Positions 31,482 through 64,000 of a stretch of DNA of 64,000 bases are shown one piece after another (position 1 is the stretch's first letter; each line of letters begins with the position of its first letter). The position numbers and the translations under genes were made by a program. The notes under the pieces were generated by a model that was given only the letters and a program-made list of their open reading frames with translations, searched no databases and was not told the DNA's origin. Source of the stretch: Paracyclopina nana (taxonomy: Eukaryota > Arthropoda > Copepoda > Cyclopoida > Cyclopettidae); the NCBI GenBank assembly GCA_019096065.1, contig JAGUCH010000002.1:818501-882500 (forward strand), in the 5' to 3' direction.

Positions 31482-31491
31482 ATTTCCCCCT
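31482..31491 (-). other. Polypurine tract
   Basis: AGGGGGAAAT immediately precedes the LTR start TGTAGC on the minus strand; it overlaps the stop codon of the env-like frame. It would prime plus-strand DNA synthesis. Confidence 0.65.
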
Positions 31492-33985: not shown

Positions 33986-34268
33986 TTTATAAACACTTTA
34001 TGAATTCCTTTTGCTAGGAGGTAGTTGGTTATTAACTCAGACTGCAAGAGAGAAGGTAAACGGTTATTATACGCTTGTTTGTCTTGTTAGTGTTTGCGCC
34101 CGAATGTCATGGTTTATATAGCATGAGCATGTGTTAATAATGCAGTTATGATACATATGTGATATGAAATATGGCATGAATGTGGCATAAATGGTGTGCA
34201 CCCCCCCAAACTTTGTCATGAGGGAGCAATATTGGTGCGTATTATAGTCTTTTTACACTTGGGTTGTA

Positions 34269-36382: not shown

Positions 36383-39300
36383 TCACTCCCGCCCGGTGCA
36401 CCACTTGAAGTCGTAGTTGGAGATGGTGTCGAGCCATCGGCCCAGCATTCCCGTGGGCGCTTCCATGGAGCGGATCCAGAGGAGGGCCCGATGGTCAGTG
36501 CGCAAGATGAACCGGCGGTGTTGCAGGTAATACTTGAATTGCTTGATGAAAATTATTACGGCCACCAGCTCGCCCTGATTAGCGGAATAGTTGCCTTGAG
36601 CAGCGTTCAACTTTTTGGCGCCGTACAAGATGACTCTTTCCTTGCGATCTTGGACTTGGGAAAGAACCCCCCCAACAGCCCTGTTTTCTTGCGAGAAATC
36701 CGTGTCCAGGATGAAAGGGTTAGGCGAAGAGAAGTCCGGATAGGCCAGTACAGGCGCAGAGGTCAGCCTTCTCTTGAGTTCGTCGAAAGCGGCCTGAAAC
36801 TCCGGGCTGGGTTGAAAAACATGGTTGTCGCTGGTGCCGTCGTCCTTGGAGAGCTTGTCCGACAGGGGCGCCGCGACATGTTGGTACTTCTCAATGAAGG
36901 ATCGGTAATAATTGGCCTTGCCAAGGAAGATACGCAGCTGCTTCCTGGTGTTAGGCAGAGGCCATTCACGGATGAGGTCAATGTAGGCTGGCATGACCTC
37001 GAGACCCTGAGGAGTGACAACATGCCCCAAGTATGTCACTCTGGATTGGAACAGGTGACATTTTGACGGCTTCAACAGAAGTCCTGCTTTCTCGTGGGCC
37101 TGCAGCACCAGGCGCAAGTTGCGGAGGTGGGACTCGAAGTCGGTTGAATGAACTAAGCAATCGTCGAGGTATGGAAGGGCCACGTCCCATGATATGCCCT
37201 CCAGTACCATTCTGTTAAGGCGGCTGTACGTCTTGGGCGCATTGGTGAGGCCGAAGGGCATCTTGAGGAAGGCGTATGAGCCGTCTCCTGTGGAAAAGGT
37301 GGTCTTCTCCACGTCCTCTGCCCGTATGGGAACCACGTTAAAGGCACCCACCGCATCCAACGTTGAGAATACCGTGGAGCGGGCCAATCGGCTGAGGTTG
37401 TCCCTGACGTCTCCGATGGGGTGTGAGTCGACTACAGTAGCCTTGTTGAGTTCCCTATAATCCACGCACCATCGCAGCGTGCCGTCCTTCTTGCGAACGG
37501 GAACGAGAGGCGCGGACCACGGTGAAGTGATGGGCGTGATGACTTCTTCCTCCAACCACTTCTGGATCTGCTCCTTCAGGGACGCCTCGAGGTTCGGGTT
37601 GATGGGTCGCCGACGGATGTTGATGGGCTTCGTCCCAGGCTTAAGGTCTATGGCGTGCTCGACCAGTGTGGTCTGCCCCGTGCGGCCGTCGAATGAAAAG
37701 GCTCCGACATGGGCCGCGAGCAGGGTGGCGGCTTGAGCCAGCCGCTTGGGGTTATCCTTGAGCATGTCGTTCTCGTTCAGCTTGAAGGTGTCAATGATAA
37801 GGTCGGCCTGCTCGTAACGGCGCTTGGCCTCGGATTCCGACTGCTTCCGGCTGGTACTGCGGGTGGTGACCGGCGTGCGCACCGCGTGCACCGAGGGAGC
37901 AGCCTCCGTTCCGCTGGGGTCGTCGCTTTCTTCGTAGACACGGAGAGTGCCGTAGGTCACTCCACCTTTAAGGCGGAGCGGGTGATCCAGGGGGTTCAGC
38001 ACCCCAACTGCCAGGCTGCCGCCGGCCCGCGGCTGGACTAATGCAATGTTCCAGGGCGCCAGCTGCGTCTGCGCAGCAAACTGGGGCTCTGCCTCGAGGG
38101 CGGCGGCCCGCGTGGACCCGTGAGGCCAGTGAGGGGCTACGGCGGCCACCAGGGTGACAGTGCGGGCTGGAATGTTGACGGGCCGCAGGATCCGGACTTC
38201 ATACTCTTCCTGATCCTCGGCAGGTTGGAGGGCGCCCACCAGCGGGATCTGCTTCCCGTGCACGCGCAGGGTCCCTTGGGAGTGGAGCTGGTCGATGCGG
38301 TGGTGGCTCAAGAAGGGCCCTGACAAGTTGAAATCCATGGAGAGGTTCCGCACCACTGCGGGTCGGATAGAGAAGGAGTGAGGGTGATTGCCCAGCTGCA
38401 CTCGCAGTGGCTGCCGTAACTCCCCTAGGACCTGGAGACGTTGCTGTGCGTGGGCGGTGCCCACCGCGGGCATGTCGAGCATGGGTCGGAGACCGTGGGG
38501 AAGAACTCCAAGTCGGCGGGCAAAATTCTCGGAGATGCACGTGCGCCAGCTGTTGCCGCTGTCGACCAGGGCCCGGGCCTTGATCTTGCCGATGCGAATC
38601 GGGACTTGAGCCATGAATCGTTGATGGCTGGCGATGTGGTCGAGAGCTGCTAATATGGAGGAAGGTGAGGGGACCCGGCTGGAGCTCTCTACAACCGGGT
38701 CGAGTCGTTTCGGTGCCGCATCATCCGAGACCTCGGATTCGGGTTCCTCCTTGGGCGTGGCCTCGTAGATTTCATTGACTCGAGCCTTTTTGTTGGTCTT
38801 GCCCGACGAGCCTTGCCGATCGGAGGTCCTTTTCTGGTCGGAGGCGCGCCTTCGTCCTCGACCTCGGGAACTCTGCCCTCGACCCGCCTGGTCCTTGTTG
38901 AGGGAAGCTGCGTGAGCCCACTTGTCGATCTTGGGGTCGTAGCGGCCAGTACGTTTGTCGGAGTCGAGGGTCCTGCATTCGCTCTTGCGGTGGCCCTTAC
39001 GCTCGCAGTAGAAGCATACGATCGTGGAGTCGTCGCCGGTTCCGGGAATCATGGCGGCAACGCGGCCTTTACCTTGCCCCAACGACAACCAACATTCAGC
39101 TTGACTGGCGGCTTCCAAGGCATCGGCCATGGTGGTGAATTTGTGCCCGGCGATGCCCATGACCACATCCTTGCGATGAAGCTTGGTCACAAACATACGG
39201 ATCAAGTCGGGGTAGGTCTCGACCTCCTTGGCCAGCTCAGGCTTGGCGCGGACGAAGATGCTACGCAGTCTAGCGTGCCATTGGGGAATCCCTTCATCAG

Positions 39301-40057
39301 AGCGCTGATGGGCCGTTTCGAGGGCTATACGGGCCACCTGGGACGACGTGGCGGTGACGAAGAACCTCTCGTAGGCGTCGAGCAGGTGCTTGAGGGTGAA
39401 GTTTTCGTCCGTCAGGAACAGATCTACCTCATTGATAGTGCGAAGTGCCGCACCCACCATGGCATGCTTGACCTCCAGTTTCTTGGTGGCCTCGGTGTCC
39501 TTGGACCCCAAGAAGGTGGCTTCCACATGGAGGCGGAAGGTGAGCCACTTGTCAGCTTCCGTGTCCTCGAACTTTTCGAGTTTGCGCTTGCGCCCAGAAC
39601 GAGCAGCGGCGTTTTCAGCCTCGAGACGGCGGGTGTTGATCTCCAGGAGCCGTAGCTCGGCCTCTTGTTTGCGGGCCTGTGCATCCGCCTGCCGCTGGGC
39701 CTCTATGGACTTCAGAAATTGCAGCAGCATCGACTGCGACAGCCCCTCAGTGTCGGGGTTGGCGCCAGCCGGGTTGGTCTCAGCTGGTTGGTTGGGCGGA
39801 TCCGTTCTAGCCCCGGACCCGGGGCGAGGCCTGGTCCCGGTAGCGGCCTCAACGGCCGATCCTTGGTTCCGCGGAAACCCAAGAGGGTCTAGGCCAGAGC
39901 GGCTCCCGGCGGCGGCCCCATGGGCCCCGAGGGTGCTTAAATCGGCTTCGAAGCGTTGTTGGAGCCCGGTGGGGTGTGGCCCCAACTCGTGGCTGTCTGG
40001 GGACGCCCCGAGCTCCTCGTTTGCGGAGGTGTGAGGAGGAGATCGTTCGACAGGCAT
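36383..40057 (-). CDS. Gag-Pol (gag, protease, RT, RNase H), ends by frameshift
   Basis: One frame of 1225 codons from the ATG at 40057 (MPVERSPPHT). Gag has a coiled-coil stretch and one CCHC knuckle (CFYCERKGHRKSEC). The protease active site reads LVDSGNS. RT has the fingers motif (WCVDYRELNKATVVDSHP), the F-S-T-L-D segment and YLDD. RNase H has ILDTDFSQ, NQGELVAV and LRTDHRAL. The order and motifs are Ty3/Gypsy. The frame ends at TGA just after the RNase H core (near 36385), where a one-base change near 36408 separates it from the integrase part. A longer frame upstream of the ATG is thought to be leader. Confidence 0.85.
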   Translation of the reverse strand: MPVERSPPHTSANEELGASPDSHELGPHPTGLQQRFEADLSTLGAHGAAAGSRSGLDPLGFPRNQGSAVEAATGTRPRPGSGARTDPPNQPAETNPAGANPDTEGLSQSMLLQFLKSIEAQRQADAQARKQEAELRLLEINTRRLEAENAAARSGRKRKLEKFEDTEADKWLTFRLHVEATFLGSKDTEATKKLEVKHAMVGAALRTINEVDLFLTDENFTLKHLLDAYERFFVTATSSQVARIALETAHQRSDEGIPQWHARLRSIFVRAKPELAKEVETYPDLIRMFVTKLHRKDVVMGIAGHKFTTMADALEAASQAECWLSLGQGKGRVAAMIPGTGDDSTIVCFYCERKGHRKSECRTLDSDKRTGRYDPKIDKWAHAASLNKDQAGRGQSSRGRGRRRASDQKRTSDRQGSSGKTNKKARVNEIYEATPKEEPESEVSDDAAPKRLDPVVESSSRVPSPSSILAALDHIASHQRFMAQVPIRIGKIKARALVDSGNSWRTCISENFARRLGVLPHGLRPMLDMPAVGTAHAQQRLQVLGELRQPLRVQLGNHPHSFSIRPAVVRNLSMDFNLSGPFLSHHRIDQLHSQGTLRVHGKQIPLVGALQPAEDQEEYEVRILRPVNIPARTVTLVAAVAPHWPHGSTRAAALEAEPQFAAQTQLAPWNIALVQPRAGGSLAVGVLNPLDHPLRLKGGVTYGTLRVYEESDDPSGTEAAPSVHAVRTPVTTRSTSRKQSESEAKRRYEQADLIIDTFKLNENDMLKDNPKRLAQAATLLAAHVGAFSFDGRTGQTTLVEHAIDLKPGTKPINIRRRPINPNLEASLKEQIQKWLEEEVITPITSPWSAPLVPVRKKDGTLRWCVDYRELNKATVVDSHPIGDVRDNLSRLARSTVFSTLDAVGAFNVVPIRAEDVEKTTFSTGDGSYAFLKMPFGLTNAPKTYSRLNRMVLEGISWDVALPYLDDCLVHSTDFESHLRNLRLVLQAHEKAGLLLKPSKCHLFQSRVTYLGHVVTPQGLEVMPAYIDLIREWPLPNTRKQLRIFLGKANYYRSFIEKYQHVAAPLSDKLSKDDGTSDNHVFQPSPEFQAAFDELKRRLTSAPVLAYPDFSSPNPFILDTDFSQENRAVGGVLSQVQDRKERVILYGAKKLNAAQGNYSANQGELVAVIIFIKQFKYYLQHRRFILRTDHRALLWIRSMEAPTGMLGRWLDTISNYDFKWCTGRE

Positions 40058-40218
40058 GATGAATGAGCGGCGGCTGCAGAGCGAAAGGGGTTGGCTTAAG
40101 GCCTTGGTGAAAGTAAGTGAATGAATATTTACCGAGAGTGGCGTAAAAGCGCGAGAGCAGGGGTGTAACAACTTGGAGTGAATCCAAAGAACTGTGTCTT
40201 TTCACCTGGTACTCGATC

Positions 40219-49687: not shown

Positions 49688-50289
49688 TGTGAAGCGTGAC
49701 ATATAGTGGGGCCCGATGAGCGCAGGCAGCGCGCAGGCAGCTTCATAGAGGACGAGAGCGAGGGAAGGCCCCGAGCAAGGAACGAGCCGGACCATCCAGG
49801 AGTCGCTTGTGGGACGCCATATCGCGATGTCCAATTAAGTTTTGCTGTACTTAGTGATTGCAGACTTGAGACCTGGAGGGTCTAAGATAGCAATAAAAGC
49901 AGACTATTGAATAACAAAACAGTGGTTTTTAGTGAACAAACTCCATCAAGAACTCAGCCTTTCAACCTGAGTTGTTCGCGTAGCGCTGACTTGAAGCCTC
50001 AGTTCATCCAGAGGCCTCTCAATTCGGTAGTGATCCTACGGTGTGGGATATCTCGCCTCTCAAGAGTCTCGTCTCCGGAACTGGAGGTGCATAGACGCTA
50101 TAGAGCCTTGAGGTCACAAGGGGCCGAGGAAGAGGCCGATCAGGACTGTCGTACCGGCCAGTCCACGAGGAGACCAGAGTGGTAGACTAGAGAGGTAGAG
50201 GCCCCTCGTCCCAAGGGGAAGTCGATCCAGCCTCAGAGTGCAGAATACGTATTTAGGCCTCTGAGGCCCCGGTCATCCAACCCCTTTCA
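49688..50289 (+). repeat. Candidate 5' LTR
   Basis: Runs from TGTGAAGCG to CCCTTTCA, ending one base before the primer-binding site. It contains AATAAA at 49892-49897. The 3' end is well placed; the 5' end is a guess from the composition change and could shift by tens of bases, since the partner LTR is outside the window. Confidence 0.55.
49892..49897 (+). terminator. LTR polyadenylation signal
   Basis: AATAAA within the candidate LTR, about 200 bp from its 5' end. Confidence 0.4.
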
Positions 50290-50290
50290 A

Positions 50291-50308
50291 TGGTGCCGCG
50301 ACCCGGGA
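50291..50308 (+). other. Primer-binding site
   Basis: TGGTGCCGCGACCCGGGA follows the LTR by one base. Its complement ends in CCA like a tRNA 3' end. From memory the nearest match is tRNA-Phe, with two differences; the primer tRNA is therefore only tentative. Confidence 0.65.
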
Positions 50309-51060
50309 GTGACCTGACAGGCGGAAGGATGGGCCTGTCAGTAGACCTCTAGGGAGTCTTCTTTGTCAGACCAACTGGCTTTGCGGGGGCACGGGCGGTG
50401 CAAGTGCCTAACTCGCGGGTTGGCCGATCTCGTCTGTCTCATCCTGACAGAAGATCGCGAATAGTGTAAAGTCGGCCTTCGGTGAAGGCAAAAAGGACCA
50501 CGTGCGCGAGGAGAAGGGCCCACAAGTGTGTATAAGACCCCATTTCTTGTCTCGGCGTGAGAGGAGTGCCGGGTACCCTCAGAGTCTTCGAGAGATATAA
50601 ACCTTTGTAGCCCGGGCTCTGAAAATACATTAGTCAAGTGGTGCGTTTGACTGCGGGGGGATCCAGGATTCCTAGCTTACGCGACTCGAGCCACGCCCTC
50701 TGCGAAGAAAGTCGAGGTCGGAAGGATTGGACTAGACTTTGGACGCCCCGATCGGAGGAATCAGAAGAAATCTCGAGATTGGGCGGAATTTACGACTCCG
50801 CACCTGCGAGCCGGACACTGGAGTGATCCCGAGAAGAAGGAGGGGACAAGACGTTTAGAAAAAAGAAAGCCGAACTCAGGACGAGTTCACGGGAATTGCC
50901 GCACAGTCAGGCGAAAGTCGCAGCAGACCGCCGCAAAATCCCAAAAGTTAAGAACTAAAATACAGTATATTTTGCTCTGCCCACTGCTAACGAAACGCTT
51001 TGCTTATTTCTAGCTCCACGGAAAAATTAGGGAAAGTTTTACGAAAAACTTTTCCCCCTT

Positions 51061-51232
51061 CTCAAGCTCGCACTTGAGACCAGATCTGCTCACTGCTAAC
51101 GTAGCTTTTCCTGGTTTTTGCTATAAAAAACCTCTTCTCTCAAGCCCAGCCTTGAGAAGTGCCTTGCCCACGTTGCTTTTATTGGTTTTTGCTGTAAAAA
51201 ACCATTTGTCCCATCTCAAGTCCAGACTTGAG
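51061..51232 (+). repeat. Three spaced hairpins with CTCAAG...CTTGAG stems
   Basis: CTCAAG-CTCGCA-CTTGAG, CTCAAG-CCCAGC-CTTGAG and CTCAAG-TCCAGA-CTTGAG lie 78 and 76 nt apart. Each is the end of a roughly 77-nt unit with shared TTTTTGCTRTAAAAAACC. The stems are conserved while the loops vary. Confidence 0.8.
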
Positions 51233-51444
51233 ACCTTTCACGCTTGACAAATTCCACAGTTAATTACGAATTCAAATAAAAACGGACAAGTGATTGACAA
51301 TTAAATAAAACGACTCTTCTGCTCAAATTATTACGCAAAAGTATCACCAAATTCGCACATTTCGCGCGCTGAAAAAGAGACCTTTTTCGCAGATTAAATC
51401 AGAGTAAAAAAGAGACATCTTTTGAAAAAATCCTAAGCTTTGCA

Positions 51445-51972
51445 CTGCAACCCACTTTCAAAAGTTGCAGAGCCAAGTTCAGCCACATCAAAACCCTTTT
51501 TTTTCACCAGATAAAACTAGTTTGCCTTCAACTCAAAACCCAAGCAAGACAAGCCCATAAATAAACTAGAAGGGCCTATTATCTTGCCAACTCACGCACA
51601 CAATTTTGCAACCTTATTCGCTACTCTCGAGCGTGGGCCGCAAGCTGTGTAGCCCCGAGTCATTTCAGCTCAGAAGAGAAAAACAGGTTTCTGCACAGCC
51701 AAATCTGGCCATCTACTCCAAGCATTCCTGCCTCATTTGGGACCCTTTTTCAAAAGAACCCATTATATTGCTATAATAAACGAATCAACTGCACTTTACT
51801 CGATTTTACGCGCACTTCGCACGCAGAAAACGAGAACGTTTTGCTACCCAACTCGCAGAGATAATTTCAGCCTCCACACTTTTATAAGGAAAATAAAAAG
51901 TACTCTATTGAATTAAACTTTGATTCAGCTGCAACCTACTTTCAAAAAGTTGTAGAGCCAAGTTTAGCCACA
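51445..51972 (+). repeat. Duplicated leader block
   Basis: CTGCAACCCACTTTCAAAAG (51445) recurs as CTGCAACCTACTTTCAAAAA (51929), each continued by GTTG-AG-AGCCAAGTT-AGCCACA. The unit folds as a hairpin (CTGCAAC / GTTGCAG); the second copy keeps pairing through G-U. Downstream, GAAGGGC...ACTCAC blocks at about 51570 and 52115 are also related, implying an old duplication of about 500 bp. Confidence 0.75.
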
Positions 51973-52284
51973 CAAAGAACCCTTTGTTACTTCAATCCAG
52001 CAATAAATTGTGAGGCCCAAAATCTTTCCCCACACAACTAACGAAAACCAGTTCTACTCTAATCTTTTGCACACATCACGATTTCAGCGAGACGGCCCAG
52101 CATAAAAAGTCTTGAAGGGCATTTTATCTAGCTGACTCACACCACAATTTAGCTTCAAGCCACCATCATAAACCTTGCCCGAAGGTTTTAAAGGAGCGGC
52201 CTAAACTGCACCTGCCAAACCACTTTTTGCACACTCGAGACTTCAATAGATATAACTTGAAATAAAATCTATCTGCCATCAAAC

Positions 52285-54666
52285 ATGGCTTCCAATGAAA
52301 TAACTGACATTCAAGACACTATGACCCGCGCACTTTATATCGCGAGAATTGCCAGCCATCTTGACCAAGATGAAGGCCAGGTAGACCGGGAAATTAATGC
52401 ACTCACGATTCTAAAAGGACCCATCGAAAATGTCATGCCTCTGTGGACCAAACGCGCGCGTTTCCCCGAGGAGCTCCCTGAAACACAATTGACCCAGCTA
52501 CAGCTAATTGAAGCCTGGAACACAGCCCGAAGTGAGGAAAATGACATTTGGCCACGTGAAAAGTCCGCCTCGGTCTCCGAGCACATTGTGACGATCATGT
52601 CAGGCCTGAGGGAGGGATCTGCCTTGATGCAACTTATGCAAGTCATACGCTACATCCTACACATAAAAAACTCTGGTATCGACCCGATTGTTGTTCAAAT
52701 CATCACGTATTTTCTTGGCCTTGAGGCCTTATCCGAGCTCATGGCCGTGAAAGAGAAGCTCACTGTAGTGGATAACATTCGAGCGGCCATCATAGCTGCG
52801 CTGCCAAATCCTCGCCAAAACATACTGCCTCTAGCTAAAGGAATCGAGATTGTTTCCATCATACTTGACCAGCAACAGATGCCTCAGAAAGATACTAATG
52901 TGCAACGAGAAGCCCAATTAGGAGGCATGAAAAAACCAGGAGTGTCTTTCGGGGACACGACAACGCTTGGAGCCCGGGACCACCTCTCGAGCACCCAAAA
53001 TAATACGAGCCAGACTCAAATGCCCAGCTTTGATGCCAGCCGCTTCCACACCTCGGTAGATGAAAATACATTATCAGAGGTGCAAACTAAAGTTCTAGCA
53101 GGGGAAAATACGACCCCTGAGGAGCAGCGAATATTTTACAACCACTTACGCGATTTATATAACGATCAGATAGCGACTACAGCATTAAACGCACTGCGAG
53201 CCATCTACAGAAAATACGTAGGGAGTGACAAAAACGCGCACCAAGCAACGGAAATTAAAGCCAGGATTGAGGCCATTACTCGAGATGGAATAGCCCTGGC
53301 AGAAAGCCGGGTTCAGCACGAATCCTTTGAGGAACCTATATTTAATAGAATCAGCAGAATGGATATCTCTAACGTCAACAATCGTGAAACCGCCTTAGAA
53401 GCGGCCTCGCAGCTTGTCGACCCATCGACAAACGAGCGCGACAAGCAGAGAGAAATTTCAGCCACACTATTATTACTCACGAATGAGCCCAACCTTACTA
53501 ATCTGCAGAAAGCAGCTTTTCAAGAAGCCTTTGTTAAAAACAGTCAAATGCTTGCAGCCCCGTCCGGAATTAGCAGCGTAACTTACTCACTCGAAAATAA
53601 CGAGCTGTACGTGCAACCTCCCCCGTGCGGAGCAGTTGCTCATCCGGACGCTAAGACTATTAAATTGATCCGACAGTCTCTGTACACGACGAAATTCGAT
53701 GCGAATTCCCCTGATAATCTGGACTCCTCGACGATGACCTTTTTCCGAGCGCTAGCCGACCAAGCATCTCTCAAGCAATGGTCTTGGAAGGCCACAATCG
53801 AAGCCTTATGCCTCATGTGCTCTCAAACCACGGTAGCAACGATACACACACTCATGATGGAAGGAGAGCAAGCCTTCCCCACTGTTTGGTCTTATCTGCA
53901 ATCATCGTCTCACACTAAGCCATCTTACCATGAAATCACACGAAAAATCAACAATTTGTATAACAACAACCAGCTCGGCTTCGGTCAAGTGATGGAGCGC
54001 TTCTTGACACTCCGCACTCACCAATATAAGGGAAGATCGCTAGGCCCAGGATCAGCTGTCGCAGCCACTCTCCTCGACGGTAAATCCTGGTTGGACAATT
54101 TCTATCCCAACGATGCCAACTTAATTGACGACCAATTTGAAAAACACTTGGCCAGCTCGGGCATTAAACCCAACAGCTCAGAAGCTTACCACGCATTAAT
54201 TCGATTAGTACAAAAAATGATTGGGAACAGTCCTCCACGTGCCCAGAAAGAAAAAGAGAAGGATCATCGATTGCCTTTCATCACAGGAGCCGAAAACCCC
54301 AAGCCTCGCGTTCATGCCATTGAAATCGAAGGATCTGACGCAGGATCACAGGCCGATCTACGCTCCGTAATACAGAAAATGATTAAAGACGAAATTCAAA
54401 TTGCCGCATTACAAGCCGTAAACGCTGGAGCAGCAGCTCAACCCGCTGCAAGCTCGAATGAGTTGAATCAATTCACCGACCCTGAAAAGACGGGTGCATG
54501 CTTACTCTGCAATCAAGCAGGCCACTTATTTAAAGTGTGCCGCGAATATCCGAATACGCCGCGCACACACTTTCGAAATGTAGGCCGCTGCAGCTTTTGC
54601 GGAGGCTACCACAGAGCCCTGGAAAATCTACTTTGCTGGAAAATCAAAAAAGAAGCATTAAAATGA
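52285..54666 (+). CDS. gag: Gag of the large LTR element
   Basis: A 793-aa frame from ATG 52285 (AAACATGG context). The N-terminal 600 residues are mostly helical with no recognisable subdomain labels; a capsid fold is assumed. Near the C-terminus are two Cys/His knuckles: CLLCNQAGHLFKVC (from residue 739) and CSFCGGYH...C about 20 residues later, the paired arrangement typical of BEL/Pao gags. Both would bind RNA during packaging. The stop TGA (54664-54666) overlaps the pol start. Confidence 0.88.
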   Translation: MASNEITDIQDTMTRALYIARIASHLDQDEGQVDREINALTILKGPIENVMPLWTKRARFPEELPETQLTQLQLIEAWNTARSEENDIWPREKSASVSEHIVTIMSGLREGSALMQLMQVIRYILHIKNSGIDPIVVQIITYFLGLEALSELMAVKEKLTVVDNIRAAIIAALPNPRQNILPLAKGIEIVSIILDQQQMPQKDTNVQREAQLGGMKKPGVSFGDTTTLGARDHLSSTQNNTSQTQMPSFDASRFHTSVDENTLSEVQTKVLAGENTTPEEQRIFYNHLRDLYNDQIATTALNALRAIYRKYVGSDKNAHQATEIKARIEAITRDGIALAESRVQHESFEEPIFNRISRMDISNVNNRETALEAASQLVDPSTNERDKQREISATLLLLTNEPNLTNLQKAAFQEAFVKNSQMLAAPSGISSVTYSLENNELYVQPPPCGAVAHPDAKTIKLIRQSLYTTKFDANSPDNLDSSTMTFFRALADQASLKQWSWKATIEALCLMCSQTTVATIHTLMMEGEQAFPTVWSYLQSSSHTKPSYHEITRKINNLYNNNQLGFGQVMERFLTLRTHQYKGRSLGPGSAVAATLLDGKSWLDNFYPNDANLIDDQFEKHLASSGIKPNSSEAYHALIRLVQKMIGNSPPRAQKEKEKDHRLPFITGAENPKPRVHAIEIEGSDAGSQADLRSVIQKMIKDEIQIAALQAVNAGAAAQPAASSNELNQFTDPEKTGACLLCNQAGHLFKVCREYPNTPRTHFRNVGRCSFCGGYHRALENLLCWKIKKEALK

Positions 54667-57600
54667 GCACCAACAATAAAGATTTAATTACACCAAATGC
54701 CTCACCCGCAGAGCCTCAAAAGGAGGCTGACAAAACAAAAAACGCTGACGCAGACGAAACTAAGAGCTATAACTACGAGCTGCCCCCTTTCATGCAGGGA
54801 CACTTTTCCCGAGAATGCGGAAAGGCCAGCTTTTCATTCTACAGAGCTCAATCTGAAGCAAAGAAACTTAAGGAAACAGGAGTAGCAGAAGTAGCCAAAG
54901 TGTCCACGAAAACTCAGACTGAGATCGAAAGTACTTGTCATTACTTCGACGACGAGCCTGCCGATATCATCGAATCTTGGGATTCGGTCAGTAACCAGGG
55001 GAAACCTAAAATTGACAAGCCCGTAACAATAATCGAAAATAGCCCATTAGCCGACTCCAACGAGGAGAAAACCTTACTAGAGCAAGGCAATGTATGGGAC
55101 TATGCAATTTACTCCTCACTGGCCATACTGGGAGCCTCCCTGGCCACCCAAGCTGTAAGGAACCCTTTAATTACCAAAGCAGCCTCTACGGCCATCATCA
55201 TCGCAGTCGCTGGTAAAACAGTAGCCGAATACGCTAAGAATAATTTAACCAATTTAACAAGATTACTAGGCCTAAATAAGGAAAGCAAGGAAAAAGAAGT
55301 AGCATGCTTGGAAATAACCAATCAGACCGTGCCCTGCGAAAGCAGCACTGCTGAGCTCAACAAAGCACCAATTCCCGAAACAAAACTTGAGATTTCCACC
55401 CCTGCTGATGCCCCAGTCTCGGCCACAGTCGTAGCCGAGACAGCTGAAGCAACAACCAATAATACAGTTGCAGCCGAAGATGATGATATAATGACCGTAA
55501 TTCAGTCCAAAATTAATTCAGTGCAGGCAGTAAACTTTAGCACACACGTAAAGAAATCCCTAGATGAAGTAGACGTCTGGGACAACGAGGACATTCAAAG
55601 TTGTCATTCACTAGAGTTAAATGACCTAGCAGATCGCCCATTCATCCACGTACAGCTACCAGGCCCGGTTTTCATCAAAGCGATGATCGACACAGGCTCG
55701 CAGAGCCAAATAATTTCGACAAAGCTCGTAGAAATCATTGAAAATAAATTAGGCTACAGCTTACCAAGAGTAGCCACTAGACACAAGCTAAAGGTATTTA
55801 ACGGCGACTCGATACCATCTTCCGAAGCAGTAGTACTACAAATCCTACTAGGAGGAAAAATACTACTGAGAAAAGTCATGTTTTTAATAGCAGATGTAGA
55901 AACGATGCTATTGATAGGCAATTCACTTTTCGCGCATAACGATGTAAGACTGACTTGTAAAGGAAATACACAATACATAGAATTAATTGGAAAAATGTCA
56001 AAATACGGTAAAATACCATTAGAATTATCATCGCAGGAGTTTTACCCAGTAATACTAACCCATTCAGTGGCATTAAGCCCAGGAGAAGAAATTACCACGT
56101 TAGCATACATCAAAGACGAAGCCCCCATATTGCCAGGCCTCGAGTACAACGAGGACACAGACTGGGAGGCCGACGAAGATGATGAATCGATTATCAGCCA
56201 TATATCCAAATTTGAAAACCAACCTATGCTCTTCGAAGCGGAAGAATTTTTAAAATCAGAATTAACGGATGGTGCAGTCACAAAAGCCGACCACAACGGA
56301 ATGGTGGCCATCAACTTGAGAAACACATGCGAATTTCCCATACGACTTGACGGACAGCAGATAGTTGGTCATGTAAATCTAATCGATTCGCACCGATTTA
56401 AAAAGACGAACAAAATAAATCGCATCAATCTGGGACTAAAAGCCATAGCTAGATACCCTTCCCAGTGTTATTGCCAGCCACATGGAATAATCGCCCAATT
56501 TTCAGACGTTAATGGGCTCACACGTACCACGTTCAATGCCTTCAATAGAGCAAACCCACTAAAAGGCAAAAATAGACCTAAGATTGTATACCGAGACATG
56601 CAGCTATTTTTAGCCAGCGACCAACAAGACTCATACGACCAACTTACGGACGAGTACTTGCAAAAATGGCTTTCGAAGAAAGAGATAACTCACATTCCAT
56701 GCATATTCGTAATTCCCGTTGAGCAACACTTATCGGGAGAAATGAAGAGGATTCTTTGCACATGCAATCGATTATTCAACAATTTTAAGCTTTTACATTT
56801 AAGACACAATCATTGTTGCCACAGACACCAAACATTAGCCACAGCCCCTATTACCTCTTTCCTAGCTGGATACGAATACACAGTTTTAACCATCTTCGCT
56901 GATGGCCTCGAATGCTTCAATTTCCAATACCAAAAGAACAAAGGAGAGGATTTCTATGACCTCGAAGTAATGGGCTCACGGCTGAGACTATACAAACTGG
57001 CCAACGATATTCATATCATCCTACACATCCGTCAAGAGGACGTGGAAGACATCGAATACACCACGGCCCTGATATACACTATATTGGGACAATTACGCTT
57101 CAAGCAAACTAGCGATTACATTTACGTACGGGCCGTGACCGAATGTCTAATAAATTTAAATGATAACCCTCTATTTTTAGCCAGCGCAGCAGCTCTCACC
57201 CTTCTTTCCGGGCTAAAATACTACCCCGAAGAAAGCACTTTTCAAGACCTACGTACAGACTATAATATACACCACTTTGTCTACATACCCGAAGGCTGCC
57301 GCTGCAACCTATGCCTAAAGCGAGAAAATGATCAACCAGTCACGGTCTGCGGAGTAAAGACAATCTTTGAAGGTCACCTGGGAGAGTACCACAACCGCCA
57401 GACGCTGATCAGAAAGACCTCAGAACTGGACTTAGTGAGCGCATCCCTAGACATAGCCGAACATACCGAGACGGAGAAACAGCTCTTTGAAGAAGTATAT
57501 CAGCTTCTAATAAATCACCCTTCTAGTATAACGGAGAACACGATATTCAACGGGCTGGGCGGCTATTTCTTCGCCACCCCTGATGAAGAGTTCGACAAGT

Positions 57601-60600
57601 TCGATCTGAGCCACATACCTGACAGCCACAGGGAGAAATTTAGGTCCCTTATGAAATCATACAACGACTGCTTCACCAATGATCCACGCGCGTACAAATT
57701 ATGGAACAGCCCTCCCATAGAGTTCGAAACAAAAGATAACGTAAAGGTCGTGGCCAAGGCCTATAATATGGGACGTCAGGACGTCGCACTCTGTGACCGT
57801 AAAATTGGCCTTATGCTGGCCAGTGGCTTGATTGAGCCCGTAGATGCAAGCCTTAATAAATTCGGTTCAAGCCCCTGTTTCATCCGCAATAGAAAAAACG
57901 ATGAAGACACCCCTATGAAGCAGCGCAAAGTCAGATTACTATATGATCTCCAGGAGCTAAACAGCCACATTGTCTACCGTGAGACAGGCCATGTAATCCC
58001 ACCAATACAAACACTTTTACCAATGCTCAATAAGGCCTGTCTGCTAACCACAGTAGATTACGCCTCGGGTTTCGACCAGTGCAGATTAGCAGAAAGCTCA
58101 GCTGATTTATCTTGCTTATGCGTAACCTCTCCACGAAGTATATACAGAGGCCACCTTTTCAGGCCCAAAACCATCCCGATGGGACTAGCACTATCACCAG
58201 TAGTTTTCTCTACAATTGTGCAACAGTCCTTACATCCCGAAATACTCGACAGATGCACATGCTATGTAGACGATTTGTGCCTGGCACGGATCAAAAACGA
58301 GCCCGCTCCCGCAGATGATAACGACTACGAATGCCATTTACGGGACTTCCAGCTCATGCTAGAAAGCATGCGCAACTTAAATGCCCTACTTTCATTAAAG
58401 AAAAGCAAAGTAGCAGTAAAAGAAGTTGAAGTCTTAGGCCACATAATAAAGATAGCTCAAAACGGACGAGTAACAATGGAAATGCCACCGAAATACAGGG
58501 ACGCATTTGACAATTACCCGCCACCAAAAACTAGAAAGCAACTGCAGCGCTTCGTAGGCCTCACAAATTGGCTCAGCCAATACTGCCCCAGCCTGGGAGC
58601 CTACATAGCCCCGATATTAGATATCCTTGGCACCGACGATGGCCGAGCTGGAAAATTCACCCTTTCTCCATTCCAAGAAAAATGCTTTAAAGCCATTGTC
58701 GAAGAAATAAAATTAGGCCTCACACTGGCCTTACCTTCTTACGGAGAAACATATGTAATAGTTGACGCAGGGACGATAAGCTACTCAGCACTACTGGCGG
58801 AAGTGGACTCTCAAGGCAAAATGGTCTGCCTCGGAGCCCACTCGGCCAGATTCCCATTAGCCATTGTACTCAATTACTGCTCATTCACAAAAGAATGTGT
58901 GGGAGTATTAGCAGCAGTCACACATTATAAGAAAATTCTTGATGCATGCACGCGAGTGATAATTATCACAGATTGCATGGCAATTGCTTCCATCCTCTCA
59001 CATTCTTTTACCACAAACAATTCGTTCATGACGCGTTTAGCATCTCGATTATATGCACTACCATACTCCTGGAGACTGAGAACAGTCCCAAGGGACCAAC
59101 TAGACGTGGTTGATGTTCTACTAAATAAATTTAAATTCTCGACCGACGAAACGATGTTTTTCGCCCCTTACAGTAACTCATGCCAGCTTACAAAAGACCT
59201 ATATGCAGGCAAGCTAGAACTGCCAGAGGATTTGAAAAATAAAGTAATAACCACGCAAGAACTTCTCACTCATATCTACAATACGTTACTAAATAATGGC
59301 CTTCTTTCCAAGCAACTGTTAGACAAACGTTTAGCATCGCTCCGAGACAAGTGGACTGACTTGATAGGCCCATGTGAAAATGAGCCATGGGACGAAGACA
59401 GCCTGGTCATTGTCAAAGATGACCCGCATGAAGAACCTATCAAGCACACTCATGAGGAAGAGATAAACCCTTACTCAGCCATAAGCTACTTAGAAAATAA
59501 CCCCGTAGTAGAAATACTTTCAGTAAAAAGAGCCCCCGAGCCGAGGCTACCGGGAATTACTCGCAATTTGCTCATTAAACTTCAGAGAAACTGCGAAGAA
59601 ACGCAAACTATTGTAAAGCTACTACTCATCAGCGATAAAAAGCACATCCCTCCGGAACTTTCAAGTCGCTTTAGGGTACTTGGCGCATCTATTCTAGTGG
59701 CTCGCAAGAACCTAAAAAGGCCTTTTTCGCAGGCCAGCAATACGAAAATATATATGAGCACTCATAACACAGCGTATTTACTGGCATGTACTCACTTATT
59801 ACACAACCACTTAGGTGCGAATAAAATGAATCTACTCTTTACACAATCCATGTACGGCACTTACAGTGCAAGAATTGCGCGCATCATATCCTCAGCATGC
59901 ATCCACTGTAGCCTAAACAAACAATCAAACACCCGGTTCATAGGGAAAAGCCGTTTCCCCTTACCGAAAGCCCCTTTTGACATGGTCTCCATAGACTTAG
60001 CATTCTTCGACGATACACTGATAACAGGAAGGAATGCCACAGTGGCTTTTATAATGGTAGACATGTTCAGTAAGCTTCTTATAGTCAAGCCTCTCACAGA
60101 TGCCAAATTCAAACAAATATCAACAGCCATGGAAGAGATATTCTCCACATATGGCACCCCAAAGCACATAATTGCTGACAACGGAGGTAACCTCACTCGA
60201 AATCTAGCCATGCAGGCATTAATAAATAAGTATAGCGTAGAGACGGTAGGACTACTATTCACTACTCCCCATAAGCATACAAATAGTTATGCAGAAAGTA
60301 ATATACGCCTATTAAGAAAAGCTCTACTGCAGAATCTGCAATGCTATAATAAAAAGCAGAGCGAAGTACTAAAATACACAGTGTTCGCCCTCAACAACCG
60401 ACCGTTAACCTTTTACAAATATGTTGATGAAAAAGGTCACACCATCATCCCTACACCGTTCAGCCTATTTTTTGACCGAAAGCCAGTTTTCGACATTGGA
60501 CATGACATTTATGACATTCTGTCGGAAACAGAAAAATTAGTACAGAAAAAACAATGGGCCGAAATAATACAAGAATATGATGAAAAGGAAGAAGAAAGGA

Positions 60601-62270
60601 TAAAAGTCATGTCAAAGACTGAATCCTTGTCCTTCAAACCAGAAATTGGAAGCCTCGTGTTCGTTCGACGATTGCCGGAAAACAAACACAGGCGAAGATT
60701 TATGGCCGAGTTACACGAAATTGTAGATATAACGCGCACCCAGGCCACAGTCAAGCCCTACTTACGTAAAGGAAAAGAACGACAAGTAGGCCTAGACCAA
60801 ATTAAAATATATCGCTTTCACGAGTTATACTCCATGCTTCCTGAAAAAGTCACCGATTTATTATTGCGTACTTACACTCCAGAACAAATTAGCAAAAATG
60901 AGAGCTCAAGGGAGATGAGACAGTTCCTGACCAACCCTTTGGTCAAGCCTCCTCACAAAAGGAAAACAGACGAGATCTCAGAAAGAGAACTGGTAGAACA
61001 GCTAATTTCGGAAACCACGTCGGACACTACAACCTCGTACGATAGACAACTGCAAACCGCCTTAGATGCAGGCAGCATTTTGCAAAGAAAGGCAGCTGAC
61101 ATATTTAAGCCTGAAGACATCGCTCGAGTAAGACAAAAAGCGCAGGATGTTGTTCTCGAAGATTGGAAACAGTTCAAGATCAGACATAAAGACTCCCCTG
61201 AACAAATAAAGGCCCAACTGGGCCTTGACAAAAACATGCCCTCGTTTAGACAGCTAGCTTTAGATAGGGTCAAAAACCAGGCTCCACAGCAAGACCCTAA
61301 AACGATGGAATACTCCACACCAGACAAACCAGCTGAACCAGTTAACCCAGACTACAGTTCCATATCCAAGGCATTCCCGAAGGACCGGGAGCAAAATCAA
61401 TCATTCGACACGGACGGAAGTTTTTCTCCCGACCACCCCATATTAAACGAGAATAATCTACAGGCCGAGCTTTCTAGAATCAATTTCCCGAACCGAAACA
61501 TGGACCTTGAAATCGAGTCTTTAGCTGACTCCTTCGCTAAGGCCTCCATTGAGCCTCAAGACCCACTGTTCTCGGGATTACTGCAACCTACAGACCTAAC
61601 TAAGGCCTTTGACAATACTAAAGAGTTCATCGAAGAATTCGAAAAACAGACCAGCTTTGTCAGCCCAGAGAGCAAAAATAAACTACTAGAAGGCTTTAGA
61701 AGACTATCACGAGCTTTCACTTCTCCCTTTAAATCACCCAAAACACGCCTAGAGGATGCAGGCACAGAAATGTCACCCCTGATTCCAAGCACTAACGATC
61801 CTTCACACGATCCTGACGTATACGAGGACGTGGGAGAATATGGGGCCACCGCCAGGCCGCCCACACCAGATGAAGAAGACGAATTAGTCTCACCACCTAG
61901 TATAGCGGACGAAGTGATGCGTAGACTGCGAGGCAGAAAACCAATAAATTACAGAGAAGCAAGAGCATACACAAAAAAGGTACACTATGTGCCACTCGAA
62001 CCCAGAGAAGGACCTCTGCCACTAGCAGAAAGGAGAAAACTTCGCGAAATATTCAACAGCGACAATGGTGATTCGCCCTATCGAGTCCAGTTGAAACATC
62101 ACGTATTACGAGATTGGAAGGGAAAACACGTCGTAGCACCGCGTTTCGACTACGCCATCTTCCTCAAAGCCATGGGGTTAGACAGCGAGAGCGACGAGCT
62201 ACAAAAAACATTAATGAAGCACAGAGTTACGCGAGACGACATGTACCACCTATATAAAGGAACACTATAG
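54663..62270 (+). CDS. pol: Pol polyprotein (protease, RT, RNase H, integrase) with extra domains
   Basis: From ATG 54663 it encodes about 2535 aa. Order: N-terminal region with two hydrophobic stretches (about residues 145-190); aspartic protease (MIDTGSQ, Asp343); an unrecognised Cys/His-containing region of roughly 350 residues (about 590-980: CYCQPHG, CTCNRLF, CRCNLC); RT (TTVDYASGFDQ; YVDD at 1201); RNase H (Asp1368, KECVGVLAA, IITDCMA); integrase finger (His1711, His1715, Cys1746, Cys1749) and core (Asp1778, Asp1839, Glu1878); a C-terminal module (EIGSLVFVRR); then a 500-residue acidic, Pro/Ser-rich tail ending in a basic folded segment. The open frame extends upstream to 54537 without an ATG, so a -1 frameshift from gag is an alternative to starting at 54663. 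Confidence 0.9.
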   Translation: MSTNNKDLITPNASPAEPQKEADKTKNADADETKSYNYELPPFMQGHFSRECGKASFSFYRAQSEAKKLKETGVAEVAKVSTKTQTEIESTCHYFDDEPADIIESWDSVSNQGKPKIDKPVTIIENSPLADSNEEKTLLEQGNVWDYAIYSSLAILGASLATQAVRNPLITKAASTAIIIAVAGKTVAEYAKNNLTNLTRLLGLNKESKEKEVACLEITNQTVPCESSTAELNKAPIPETKLEISTPADAPVSATVVAETAEATTNNTVAAEDDDIMTVIQSKINSVQAVNFSTHVKKSLDEVDVWDNEDIQSCHSLELNDLADRPFIHVQLPGPVFIKAMIDTGSQSQIISTKLVEIIENKLGYSLPRVATRHKLKVFNGDSIPSSEAVVLQILLGGKILLRKVMFLIADVETMLLIGNSLFAHNDVRLTCKGNTQYIELIGKMSKYGKIPLELSSQEFYPVILTHSVALSPGEEITTLAYIKDEAPILPGLEYNEDTDWEADEDDESIISHISKFENQPMLFEAEEFLKSELTDGAVTKADHNGMVAINLRNTCEFPIRLDGQQIVGHVNLIDSHRFKKTNKINRINLGLKAIARYPSQCYCQPHGIIAQFSDVNGLTRTTFNAFNRANPLKGKNRPKIVYRDMQLFLASDQQDSYDQLTDEYLQKWLSKKEITHIPCIFVIPVEQHLSGEMKRILCTCNRLFNNFKLLHLRHNHCCHRHQTLATAPITSFLAGYEYTVLTIFADGLECFNFQYQKNKGEDFYDLEVMGSRLRLYKLANDIHIILHIRQEDVEDIEYTTALIYTILGQLRFKQTSDYIYVRAVTECLINLNDNPLFLASAAALTLLSGLKYYPEESTFQDLRTDYNIHHFVYIPEGCRCNLCLKRENDQPVTVCGVKTIFEGHLGEYHNRQTLIRKTSELDLVSASLDIAEHTETEKQLFEEVYQLLINHPSSITENTIFNGLGGYFFATPDEEFDKFDLSHIPDSHREKFRSLMKSYNDCFTNDPRAYKLWNSPPIEFETKDNVKVVAKAYNMGRQDVALCDRKIGLMLASGLIEPVDASLNKFGSSPCFIRNRKNDEDTPMKQRKVRLLYDLQELNSHIVYRETGHVIPPIQTLLPMLNKACLLTTVDYASGFDQCRLAESSADLSCLCVTSPRSIYRGHLFRPKTIPMGLALSPVVFSTIVQQSLHPEILDRCTCYVDDLCLARIKNEPAPADDNDYECHLRDFQLMLESMRNLNALLSLKKSKVAVKEVEVLGHIIKIAQNGRVTMEMPPKYRDAFDNYPPPKTRKQLQRFVGLTNWLSQYCPSLGAYIAPILDILGTDDGRAGKFTLSPFQEKCFKAIVEEIKLGLTLALPSYGETYVIVDAGTISYSALLAEVDSQGKMVCLGAHSARFPLAIVLNYCSFTKECVGVLAAVTHYKKILDACTRVIIITDCMAIASILSHSFTTNNSFMTRLASRLYALPYSWRLRTVPRDQLDVVDVLLNKFKFSTDETMFFAPYSNSCQLTKDLYAGKLELPEDLKNKVITTQELLTHIYNTLLNNGLLSKQLLDKRLASLRDKWTDLIGPCENEPWDEDSLVIVKDDPHEEPIKHTHEEEINPYSAISYLENNPVVEILSVKRAPEPRLPGITRNLLIKLQRNCEETQTIVKLLLISDKKHIPPELSSRFRVLGASILVARKNLKRPFSQASNTKIYMSTHNTAYLLACTHLLHNHLGANKMNLLFTQSMYGTYSARIARIISSACIHCSLNKQSNTRFIGKSRFPLPKAPFDMVSIDLAFFDDTLITGRNATVAFIMVDMFSKLLIVKPLTDAKFKQISTAMEEIFSTYGTPKHIIADNGGNLTRNLAMQALINKYSVETVGLLFTTPHKHTNSYAESNIRLLRKALLQNLQCYNKKQSEVLKYTVFALNNRPLTFYKYVDEKGHTIIPTPFSLFFDRKPVFDIGHDIYDILSETEKLVQKKQWAEIIQEYDEKEEERIKVMSKTESLSFKPEIGSLVFVRRLPENKHRRRFMAELHEIVDITRTQATVKPYLRKGKERQVGLDQIKIYRFHELYSMLPEKVTDLLLRTYTPEQISKNESSREMRQFLTNPLVKPPHKRKTDEISERELVEQLISETTSDTTTSYDRQLQTALDAGSILQRKAADIFKPEDIARVRQKAQDVVLEDWKQFKIRHKDSPEQIKAQLGLDKNMPSFRQLALDRVKNQAPQQDPKTMEYSTPDKPAEPVNPDYSSISKAFPKDREQNQSFDTDGSFSPDHPILNENNLQAELSRINFPNRNMDLEIESLADSFAKASIEPQDPLFSGLLQPTDLTKAFDNTKEFIEEFEKQTSFVSPESKNKLLEGFRRLSRAFTSPFKSPKTRLEDAGTEMSPLIPSTNDPSHDPDVYEDVGEYGATARPPTPDEEDELVSPPSIADEVMRRLRGRKPINYREARAYTKKVHYVPLEPREGPLPLAERRKLREIFNSDNGDSPYRVQLKHHVLRDWKGKHVVAPRFDYAIFLKAMGLDSESDELQKTLMKHRVTRDDMYHLYKGTL

Positions 62271-62351
62271 CCCTCAGGCGCCAGGCGTACCGTCCCTTCT
62301 TAGCCACCCGTGCACCACTGCTCCTCAGTACACTCGCTTAAGCCTTGAAAA

Positions 62352-62984
62352 ATGGAGATTAACGCAAGCAATCTACTAGCTTGGAAACCTGAGAAGAAAC
62401 ATCTAGCTCTTGCATTGATAAGACAATACTGGGTGGGAATGAGCTTCTCATCGCCTACACTTCAAGAACAGGAGATTCTAAATGAGCTATATGGGTTCGG
62501 AGTATACCAACACGTAAAAAAGGTTATTAGACACAAAGCCTTTGTGCGGGCCACATATGACCTCCTGAGGCCTTCCCCATGGCATTCCTTAGTATCACGA
62601 GACACGATATCTTCCCACGACACCTCAAGCTTGTACAACTTCGACGAGCTGATTGGGCTTACCGACGCATTTATACGAAAAAATAAAGGAATAGCCTACA
62701 AGCAGGCACTAAGTGAACATTACCTCAGAAACCGACACTATCCAGAACATTTCAGGGATGAACACCTGCGCCCAACACCCATGCCTCTAGACGCATTATA
62801 CGAGAGCCTAATTAGCCTAATGGCCTGCCGTTGGAGACTGCACCTCAAAGGCAACCCAAAAATGGATCACGAGAAATTGGTGGCCATTCCAGAGCAATTC
62901 CTAGAGGACCACTGCCAGAAATACTGCGAAACAGACAAGCTTCGAATTAAATCAATTTTGGCCCTCTCAAACAGCGAAACCTAA
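62352..62984 (+). CDS. DUF5662-like HD-type accessory protein A
   Basis: A 210-aa ORF, 81 nt after pol. It has the pattern HKAFV (His61), SSHDTSSL (His89-Asp90), an acidic FDEL, then HYLRNRHYPEHF (His123, Asn127, His129, His133) and TPMPLDALYESL. The same order HK - HD-x-SKL - H-x3-N-x-HHPEH - MP/L-x-E marks DUF5662 proteins of phages, bacteria and large DNA viruses, as I recall them; they are thought to be HD-like metal-dependent phosphohydrolases of unknown substrate. No signal peptide or membrane segment, so it is not an env. One metal-site position (HH) reads HY. Expression is probably from a spliced or internal mRNA. Confidence 0.6.
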   Translation: MEINASNLLAWKPEKKHLALALIRQYWVGMSFSSPTLQEQEILNELYGFGVYQHVKKVIRHKAFVRATYDLLRPSPWHSLVSRDTISSHDTSSLYNFDELIGLTDAFIRKNKGIAYKQALSEHYLRNRHYPEHFRDEHLRPTPMPLDALYESLISLMACRWRLHLKGNPKMDHEKLVAIPEQFLEDHCQKYCETDKLRIKSILALSNSET

Positions 62985-63214
62985 CATAGCCCTGTCAAAA
63001 AAGGCCAAAGAACACGAAATTGCCAAGATAAATAAGAATAAAAACTAAAAGCCCTACATGTATCGTCAGGACAAATACACTAATGTGCCTTTCTCATAAA
63101 ACCTTCATTAAATTTATTTCATAATGCATAACACTTTTAGACCAGACAGCAGACAGTCTACTCATCACATTCTCGCGCTGCTACAGGAAACTTCGCAGTC
63201 TCTTTGCGTTCACT

Positions 63215-63847
63215 ATGGAGCCTACAGCACAAAAATTAATTATCAGAACTCCCGAATGGAAAAATACAGCTATACGGCTCATGAAAAAACATTGGATAGA
63301 CAAACAACCAATTCCACCCCCAATTGGGATGACGAACCTTATGGACCGCGCCATGTTACACGAGCTGGCACGATTCGGCATCGACCAGTACGTACAGCAA
63401 GTATGCACGCACAAAGCCTTTGTGACCAAAACTTACGAGCGCTTCATTCGCCCGCCGTGGGAAAACGTAATCTCGCGAGACGAGATCGCAGCCTACGACA
63501 ACTCCTCATTGTACGAATTCGACGAGTTGGTTGGCCTGACCGAAGGCATTATTCATGGCCATAAAGGAGCGGCCTACAACAGGGCCATCAGGCATCATTA
63601 TTTGCGTAACCAGCACCACCCAGAACACTACGTCGACGGAAATGGCCAGCCCTCTCCTATGCCATTTGCACCCCTACTAGCAAGCGCCTTAGGTCTGATC
63701 GCCACACGCTGGGAGAAACAGCTACAGGGCGACCCACAAATCGACGACAAAACCTTGTTAATGATTGAGCCCCAAACACTGGACAATTACCATGAGCTTG
63801 ACAAGATGCGAATTATGGGAATTATGTCTCTATTTAGGACACAATAA
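63215..63847 (+). CDS. DUF5662-like HD-type accessory protein B
   Basis: Second 210-aa ORF, paralogous to the previous one over the whole length (shared HKAFV, PW-x-x-x-ISRD, SSLYxFDEL-x-GLT, HYLRNxHxPEH, PMP). Landmarks: His66, Tyr94-Asp95 where copy A has His-Asp, His128, Asn132, His134, His135, Glu137, His138. So B keeps the HH pair but has lost the His of the HD doublet. Start ATG 63215 gives the same length as copy A. Either B has lost activity and acts as a partner of A, or the family uses different ligands. Confidence 0.6.
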   Translation: MEPTAQKLIIRTPEWKNTAIRLMKKHWIDKQPIPPPIGMTNLMDRAMLHELARFGIDQYVQQVCTHKAFVTKTYERFIRPPWENVISRDEIAAYDNSSLYEFDELVGLTEGIIHGHKGAAYNRAIRHHYLRNQHHPEHYVDGNGQPSPMPFAPLLASALGLIATRWEKQLQGDPQIDDKTLLMIEPQTLDNYHELDKMRIMGIMSLFRTQ

Positions 63848-64000
63848 ACTAGCACCGATAGTAATAAATACGTATAATAAATATATATATATATATATAT
63901 ATATTAAAACACAGCACACTCTCGCTCCCTAGTGCGATATATAACCCCCAAATATGACCTCAAATTCGGTTAGGGTGACCAGGTCACCATAACCTTTCAG
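63848..64000 (+). other. 3' untranslated part of the LTR element
   Basis: Contains AATAAA-like sequences and a (TA) run at 63880-63904. GGTGACCAGGTCACC at 63974-63988 is a short palindrome. No polypurine tract or LTR start is seen before the window ends. Confidence 0.5.

Follow-up and report, generated by a model that had tools for sequence, protein, structure and literature searches.

A tandem pair of DUF5662 genes in a young LTR retroelement family with an env-like gene in the copepod Paracyclopina nana

Introduction

Long terminal repeat (LTR) retrotransposons of bdelloid rotifers carry a captured third open reading frame (ORF3), such as GDSL or DEDDy, according to the part of PMC5408684 used here. 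Here we describe an LTR retroelement in a stretch of 64,000 nucleotides (nt) from the copepod Paracyclopina nana (contig JAGUCH010000002.1, positions 818,501 to 882,500; hereafter the window), which carries two genes of the family DUF5662 (Pfam PF18907), ORF A and ORF B, downstream of pol. The two systems are alike in having gained enzyme-derived genes after pol, and they differ in that the rotifer elements took up another gene family, whereas the copepod element holds two tandem paralogues together with a separate env-like ORF. Troyka elements are likewise virus-like LTR elements of animals, but they have CG...CG ends and target-site duplications (TSDs) of 3 bp, as stated in the portion of PMC12440569 drawn on here, whereas the element described here has TG...CA ends and 4-bp TSDs in all seven copies. 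A further possible point of comparison is ORF57, which is conserved in cypriniviruses, has a homolog in crocodile poxvirus and is of unknown function; in Cyprinid herpesvirus 3 (CyHV-3) it was reported as an essential virulence factor (both from the section of PMC5588920 used here).

The name DUF5662 was not found in the literature searched, and literature searches for LTR elements that carry HD-type or additional ORFs brought up no such case, judged by titles and the beginnings of abstracts. All coordinates below follow the numbering of the window; those beyond 64000 continue it outside the window, with positions in locus L010 in brackets.

Two DUF5662 genes downstream of pol

ORF A (62352..62984, + strand) and ORF B (63215..63847, + strand) each encode 210 amino acids (aa) and are 42% identical to each other. 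The pol stop (62270) is separated from ORF A by 81 nt and from ORF B by 944 nt. Both ORFs matched PF18907 above the gathering cut-off of 27 bits (ORF A: 40.6 bits, E-value 2.6e-10; ORF B: 35.6 bits, E-value 9.1e-9). A preliminary description of the window had proposed tandem 210-aa ORFs after pol with similarity to DUF5662 and had called for this profile comparison; coordinates, lengths, strand and scores bore it out, and the motifs it listed (HK, (H/Y)D-x-SSL, H-x3-N-x-H-x-PEH and MP) were found in the ORFs. The PF18907 profile matched 16 places in the genome and had matches in none of 14 control genomes, and the similarity is therefore beyond chance. Fourteen of the 16 places are the A/B pairs of seven element copies; the other two are a rearranged older relative (L024) and a stand-alone gene (L023).

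Copies, insertion and selection

The window holds one of seven full-length copies in the genome (22,650-22,862 bp). All seven copies have paired LTRs with TG...CA ends, a 4-bp TSD (GGTG for the window copy) and a primer binding site (PBS)-like sequence, and the first 8 bases past the 5' LTR are identical throughout. The two LTRs of a copy differ by 0, 0, 1, 1, 1, 1 and 3 mismatches of 600 or 601 positions across the seven copies. Mean synonymous divergence between copies (dS 0.08-0.17 for the sense genes) is far above this LTR-pair divergence, and the copies therefore represent several diverged lineages, each recently inserted. The family is young, and A and B transpose with the element.

ORFs A and B are open in all seven copies; a locus boundary runs through A in the C1 copy and through B in the C7 copy, and each of these was read as two pieces. 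Stops or frame breaks interrupt gag, pol or env in the three C3 copies, and the C5 gag matches in two frames (gag of the C1 and C7 copies was covered from beyond its first part). Mean pairwise dN/dS values (Nei-Gojobori), which are descriptive and carry no error bars, were 0.23 for A, 0.20 for B, 0.06 for ORF C, 0.10 for env, 0.04 for pol and 0.02 for gag. Six of the seven copies entered the values for ORFs A, B and C, for the first 2170 codons of pol and for the last 358 codons of gag, and four entered that for env; copies were excluded when split over loci, frame-broken or unmatched from the first residue, and a single stop in one of the pol copies was skipped. A and B are thus under purifying selection and are less constrained than gag and pol.

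These observations bear on one alternative, namely that A and B are host genes adjoining the element or a functionless passenger picked up once. The stand-alone DUF5662 gene elsewhere in the genome (L023) would fit such an origin. However, seven insertions with TSDs of their own contain the pair, each time after pol and before ORF C, and purifying selection acts across the diverged copies. We therefore rejected host genes beside an element, in agreement with the earlier placement of the genes inside it, and regard this alternative in either form as very improbable.

Sister elements and origin of the pair

When the genome was searched with the reverse transcriptase (RT) region, 86 of 410 candidates were scored: the seven copies, at 99-100% identity, and another 79 matches at 48-57%. 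A search with the env-like ORF (70 of 118 scored) recovered, besides the family itself, relatives at 29-32%. Most of these env-like relatives, among the 70 scored of 118, lack an inner stop; they form large sister families, and the genome is rich in LTR elements that bear env-like ORFs. Three sister elements, hand-picked from the two match lists rather than drawn at random, have pol, then a gap and then homologs of ORF C (E-value at most 9e-11) and of the env-like ORF (E-value at most 3e-67). DUF5662 was found in none of the three, the best tblastn E-value for A or B being 1.3. Because all three share the layout but lack the pair, A and B were probably gained in one lineage; they may instead have been lost from the others, gain being the simpler course.

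The sister elements also bear on the alternative that A and B serve the particle as structural or replication proteins, for instance by binding nucleic acid or Gag, and have no host-facing role. Open frames in every copy, purifying selection and the lack of a hydrophobic segment in either protein would all suit such a function. On the other hand, elements of the same pol/env plan do without A and B in three of three cases, and the dN/dS values of the pair are about 5 to 12 times those of gag and pol. We consider a purely particle-related function improbable.

Outside the element, DUF5662 was seen here mainly on viral contigs, at no fewer than 29 loci within the 600 stretches scanned. With ORF A alone as query no database relative was found among 94 candidates, and a 14-sequence profile retrieved three among 1393; these three proteins come from short ENA/JGI contigs. 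The phylogenetic tree comprised 37 DUF5662 proteins from alignment A3, in which 25 of the 29 viral loci were represented (three duplicates and one fragment were left out); it was midpoint-rooted and its long branches were flagged. A, B and L024 formed one clade (100/100), within which A grouped with L024 (98/95), apart from B (100/97). The element sequences fell inside a 12-row clade (100/100) together with the stand-alone host gene and the three database proteins, separate from the viral-contig rows. Because A and B form one clade, the two genes probably arose from one capture followed by a duplication. The stand-alone gene (L023:4840-5448, - strand) has the full signature of the family and adjoins an ankyrin-repeat ORF; a tblastn search with it against phage records found no match. 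L024 (C7:5689001-5698900) is an older mosaic adjoining pieces of another gag-pol; its pol end is 83% identical to that of the element, and its A-like gene, which contains one stop, shares 68% identity with A. A B gene was not found there.

Signature and predicted fold

An alignment made here, rather than a published definition, yielded an H-HD-H-H-D signature that is complete in all 29 DUF5662 sequences outside the element. The window copies of A and B resemble the family in keeping the first His, the Asp of HD and H-x3-N-x-H-x-P-E (8 of the 11 signature columns are retained in both). They differ from it by their tandem arrangement on a retroelement and by the loss of the last Asp, which is Ser in A and Gly in B. 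In addition, ORF B has Tyr for the His of HD (YD) and Ala for the Glu, with the Asp of YD kept in all seven copies, and ORF A has HG for HD, and hence no Asp, in two of seven. We take the His/Asp residues of the signature, including the last Asp, to be metal ligands; neither A nor B holds the complete His/Asp set of HD metal enzymes.

The preliminary description had called the proteins DUF5662/HD-like, a reading that is supported in part. The first half stands on the profile scores, but no sequence match to an HD family was found: ORF A matched only DUF5662 at E-values up to 10, and the 25 families listed, of 31 matched by the 37 DUF5662 members, included no HD family. Twelve of these 37 matched one PHROGs family without a function, and the matches to NCBIfam and to a defence library were scattered, each single or double. 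The HD-domain proteins DvhD and PA4781 (both HD-GYP) and PgpH have no sequence match to A or B, whose signature is incomplete by comparison. A bi-metal HD-GYP domain and PgpH are among the structural neighbours found for the model of ORF A, and structure modelling lends moderate support to an HD-like helical fold for A and B. A second structural comparison of the phage-type model covered 16 chains, and the rows listed contained no HD chain.

A Foldseek search of a viral structure library gave three top rows with probability 1.00 (E-values 0.007, 0.009 and 0.084). The two best are nameless entries and the third is K7PC68, the ORF57 protein of Cyprinid herpesvirus 1, with TM scores of 0.53 (query) and 0.27 (target) and an E-value that is not significant. 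K7PC68 is longer (453 aa) and belongs to a DNA virus, and the comparison is one of folds only; a relation of ORF57 to A and B is a lead from modelling, not a shown relation.

The signature and the model neighbours are central to a third alternative, by which A and B would be active metal-dependent phosphohydrolases, perhaps a heteromer, that shift nucleotide pools or break down a nucleotide signal and so aid reverse transcription or block host defence. The bi-metal HD-GYP and PgpH neighbours of the ORF A model, the retained signature columns and the invariant Asp of the YD in B speak for it, as do single Thy1 and NADAR genes near phage-type DUF5662 genes. Against it stand the loss of the last Asp in both proteins, the two substitutions in B and the missing Asp in two A copies. 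The phage-type neighbourhoods also weigh against it, as 101 neighbour proteins scanned (of 141 listed ORFs, from 24 of the 29 loci) revealed no consistent context; only Metallophos recurred (two members) among the 25 of 38 families listed. A role in nucleotide metabolism deduced from these neighbourhoods was accordingly rejected, and we hold active enzymes to be possible but rather unlikely.

Structure of the element

The complete element spans 49690-72551 (+ strand; 22,862 bp), of which 49690..64000 lies in the window and the rest, to 72551, outside it. The 5' LTR (49690..50289, +; 600 bp, TG...CA) differs from the 3' LTR by one mismatch in 600, and the flank before it ends in GGTG. No LTR was found within the first 4.5 kb past the window; the 3' LTR lies farther downstream, outside the window, at 71952-72551 (L010:8452-9051), and GGTG follows directly. 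A PBS-like 19-mer (50291..50309, +) starts one base past the 5' LTR. Four loci were checked for the primer tRNA among 11 exact PBS matches and contained no tRNA gene; no Rfam family was found in L010.

The gag gene (52285..54666, +; 793 aa) encodes a C-terminal CCHC-like knuckle with a weak zf-CCHC_2 match below the cut-off (E-value 0.016). It overlaps by about 130 nt with pol (54537..62270, +; up to 2577 aa), whose reading frame is -1 with respect to that of gag. RVT_1 and RT_RNaseH matched pol above the Pfam cut-offs and gag-asp_proteas weakly, below the cut-off; the HHCC and DDE motifs of the integrase were placed by eye in the pol translation, with no integrase profile match. The element is an LTR retroelement with an env-like gene and, judged by the order protease, RT, RNase H, integrase, is of Ty3 type.

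Downstream of the pair follows a 4.8-kb stretch in which the seven copies share no long ORF on the + strand, then, outside the window, ORF C (68655-69548; L010:5155-6048; 297 aa as listed from a putative TTG start) and a 632-aa ORF (69917-71815; L010:6417-8315). The latter has one hydrophobic segment (residues 555-578) and 14 Cys and had no relative in Pfam, the PDB or the protein database (one of these searches covering the best 7994 candidates); from its sequence it is putatively membrane-anchored and env-like. The env position earlier assigned to A and B was consequently rejected, since the pair is followed by the env-like ORF about 6 kb and by the 3' LTR about 8 kb farther downstream.

The 11-mer GGTTAGGGTGA at 63968..63978 (L010:468-478, +) is identical to the 11-mer adjoining the 3' LTR and recurs after ORF B, outside the window, at 64038-64048 (L010:538-548). 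The three matches in L010 were reached in none of 200 shuffles. GGTTAGGGTGA is present at least once after ORF B in all six other copies and was not found in the pieces examined of the three sister elements. The copies after ORF B could be secondary plus-strand primer sites.

An antisense ORF of 186 aa with a TTG start (66333-66893, - strand; L010:2833-3393) is matched in the six remaining copies without a stop and has a dN/dS of 0.59 (five copies). A 182-aa antisense ORF was rejected as a gene, its ATG-started 169-aa form being intact in one of seven copies.

A second, different LTR-type element occupies 31490-40171 (- strand) of the window, with RT, RNase H, integrase and a fusion-glycoprotein gene. 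The Monjiviricetes_fusion match is split over two ORFs (E-values 2.9e-28 and 6.9e-19), and its env therefore appears interrupted. In the host assembly, TTAGG-type repeats, common in arthropods, were present at 8 of 15 contig ends and absent from 5, and the remaining 2 read N. Neither the nematode spliced leader SL1 nor a bdelloid leader had an exact match, which speaks weakly against a nematode or bdelloid host.

Proposed role and significance

The explanation that we favour starts from a Ty3-type element with an env-like gene, in which the two DUF5662 genes lie after pol and before ORF C, one gene having presumably been captured in the element lineage and then duplicated, as the tree and the sister elements suggest. 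A and B would be accessory proteins directed at the host, their site rebuilt or no longer catalytic, and not work as the ancestral metal-dependent enzyme; as a pair or individually next to each other, they would bind a host factor or a ligand of nucleotide type. A binding role appears most likely because the last Asp is missing from both proteins and because gag and pol evolve more slowly than either. Taken as a whole (a captured and duplicated pair with an HD-like fold that binds rather than performs the ancestral catalysis), this explanation has in our judgement an even chance of being correct. The more specific idea that A and B are a non-catalytic accessory pair directed against nucleotide-based host defence, with ORF57 as a parallel recruitment of the same fold by DNA viruses, is one that we think unlikely.

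To our knowledge, LTR elements that combine an env-like gene with additional, dedicated accessory genes have seldom been described outside vertebrate retroviruses. For gene capture by LTR elements as such, the bdelloid rotifers provide a precedent (the part of PMC5408684 cited above). A young family of seven copies, together with sister elements in the same genome that lack the pair, offers a natural comparison with and without these genes, and would open a way to the function of DUF5662 and perhaps to that of ORF57, an unexplained gene of fish herpesviruses.
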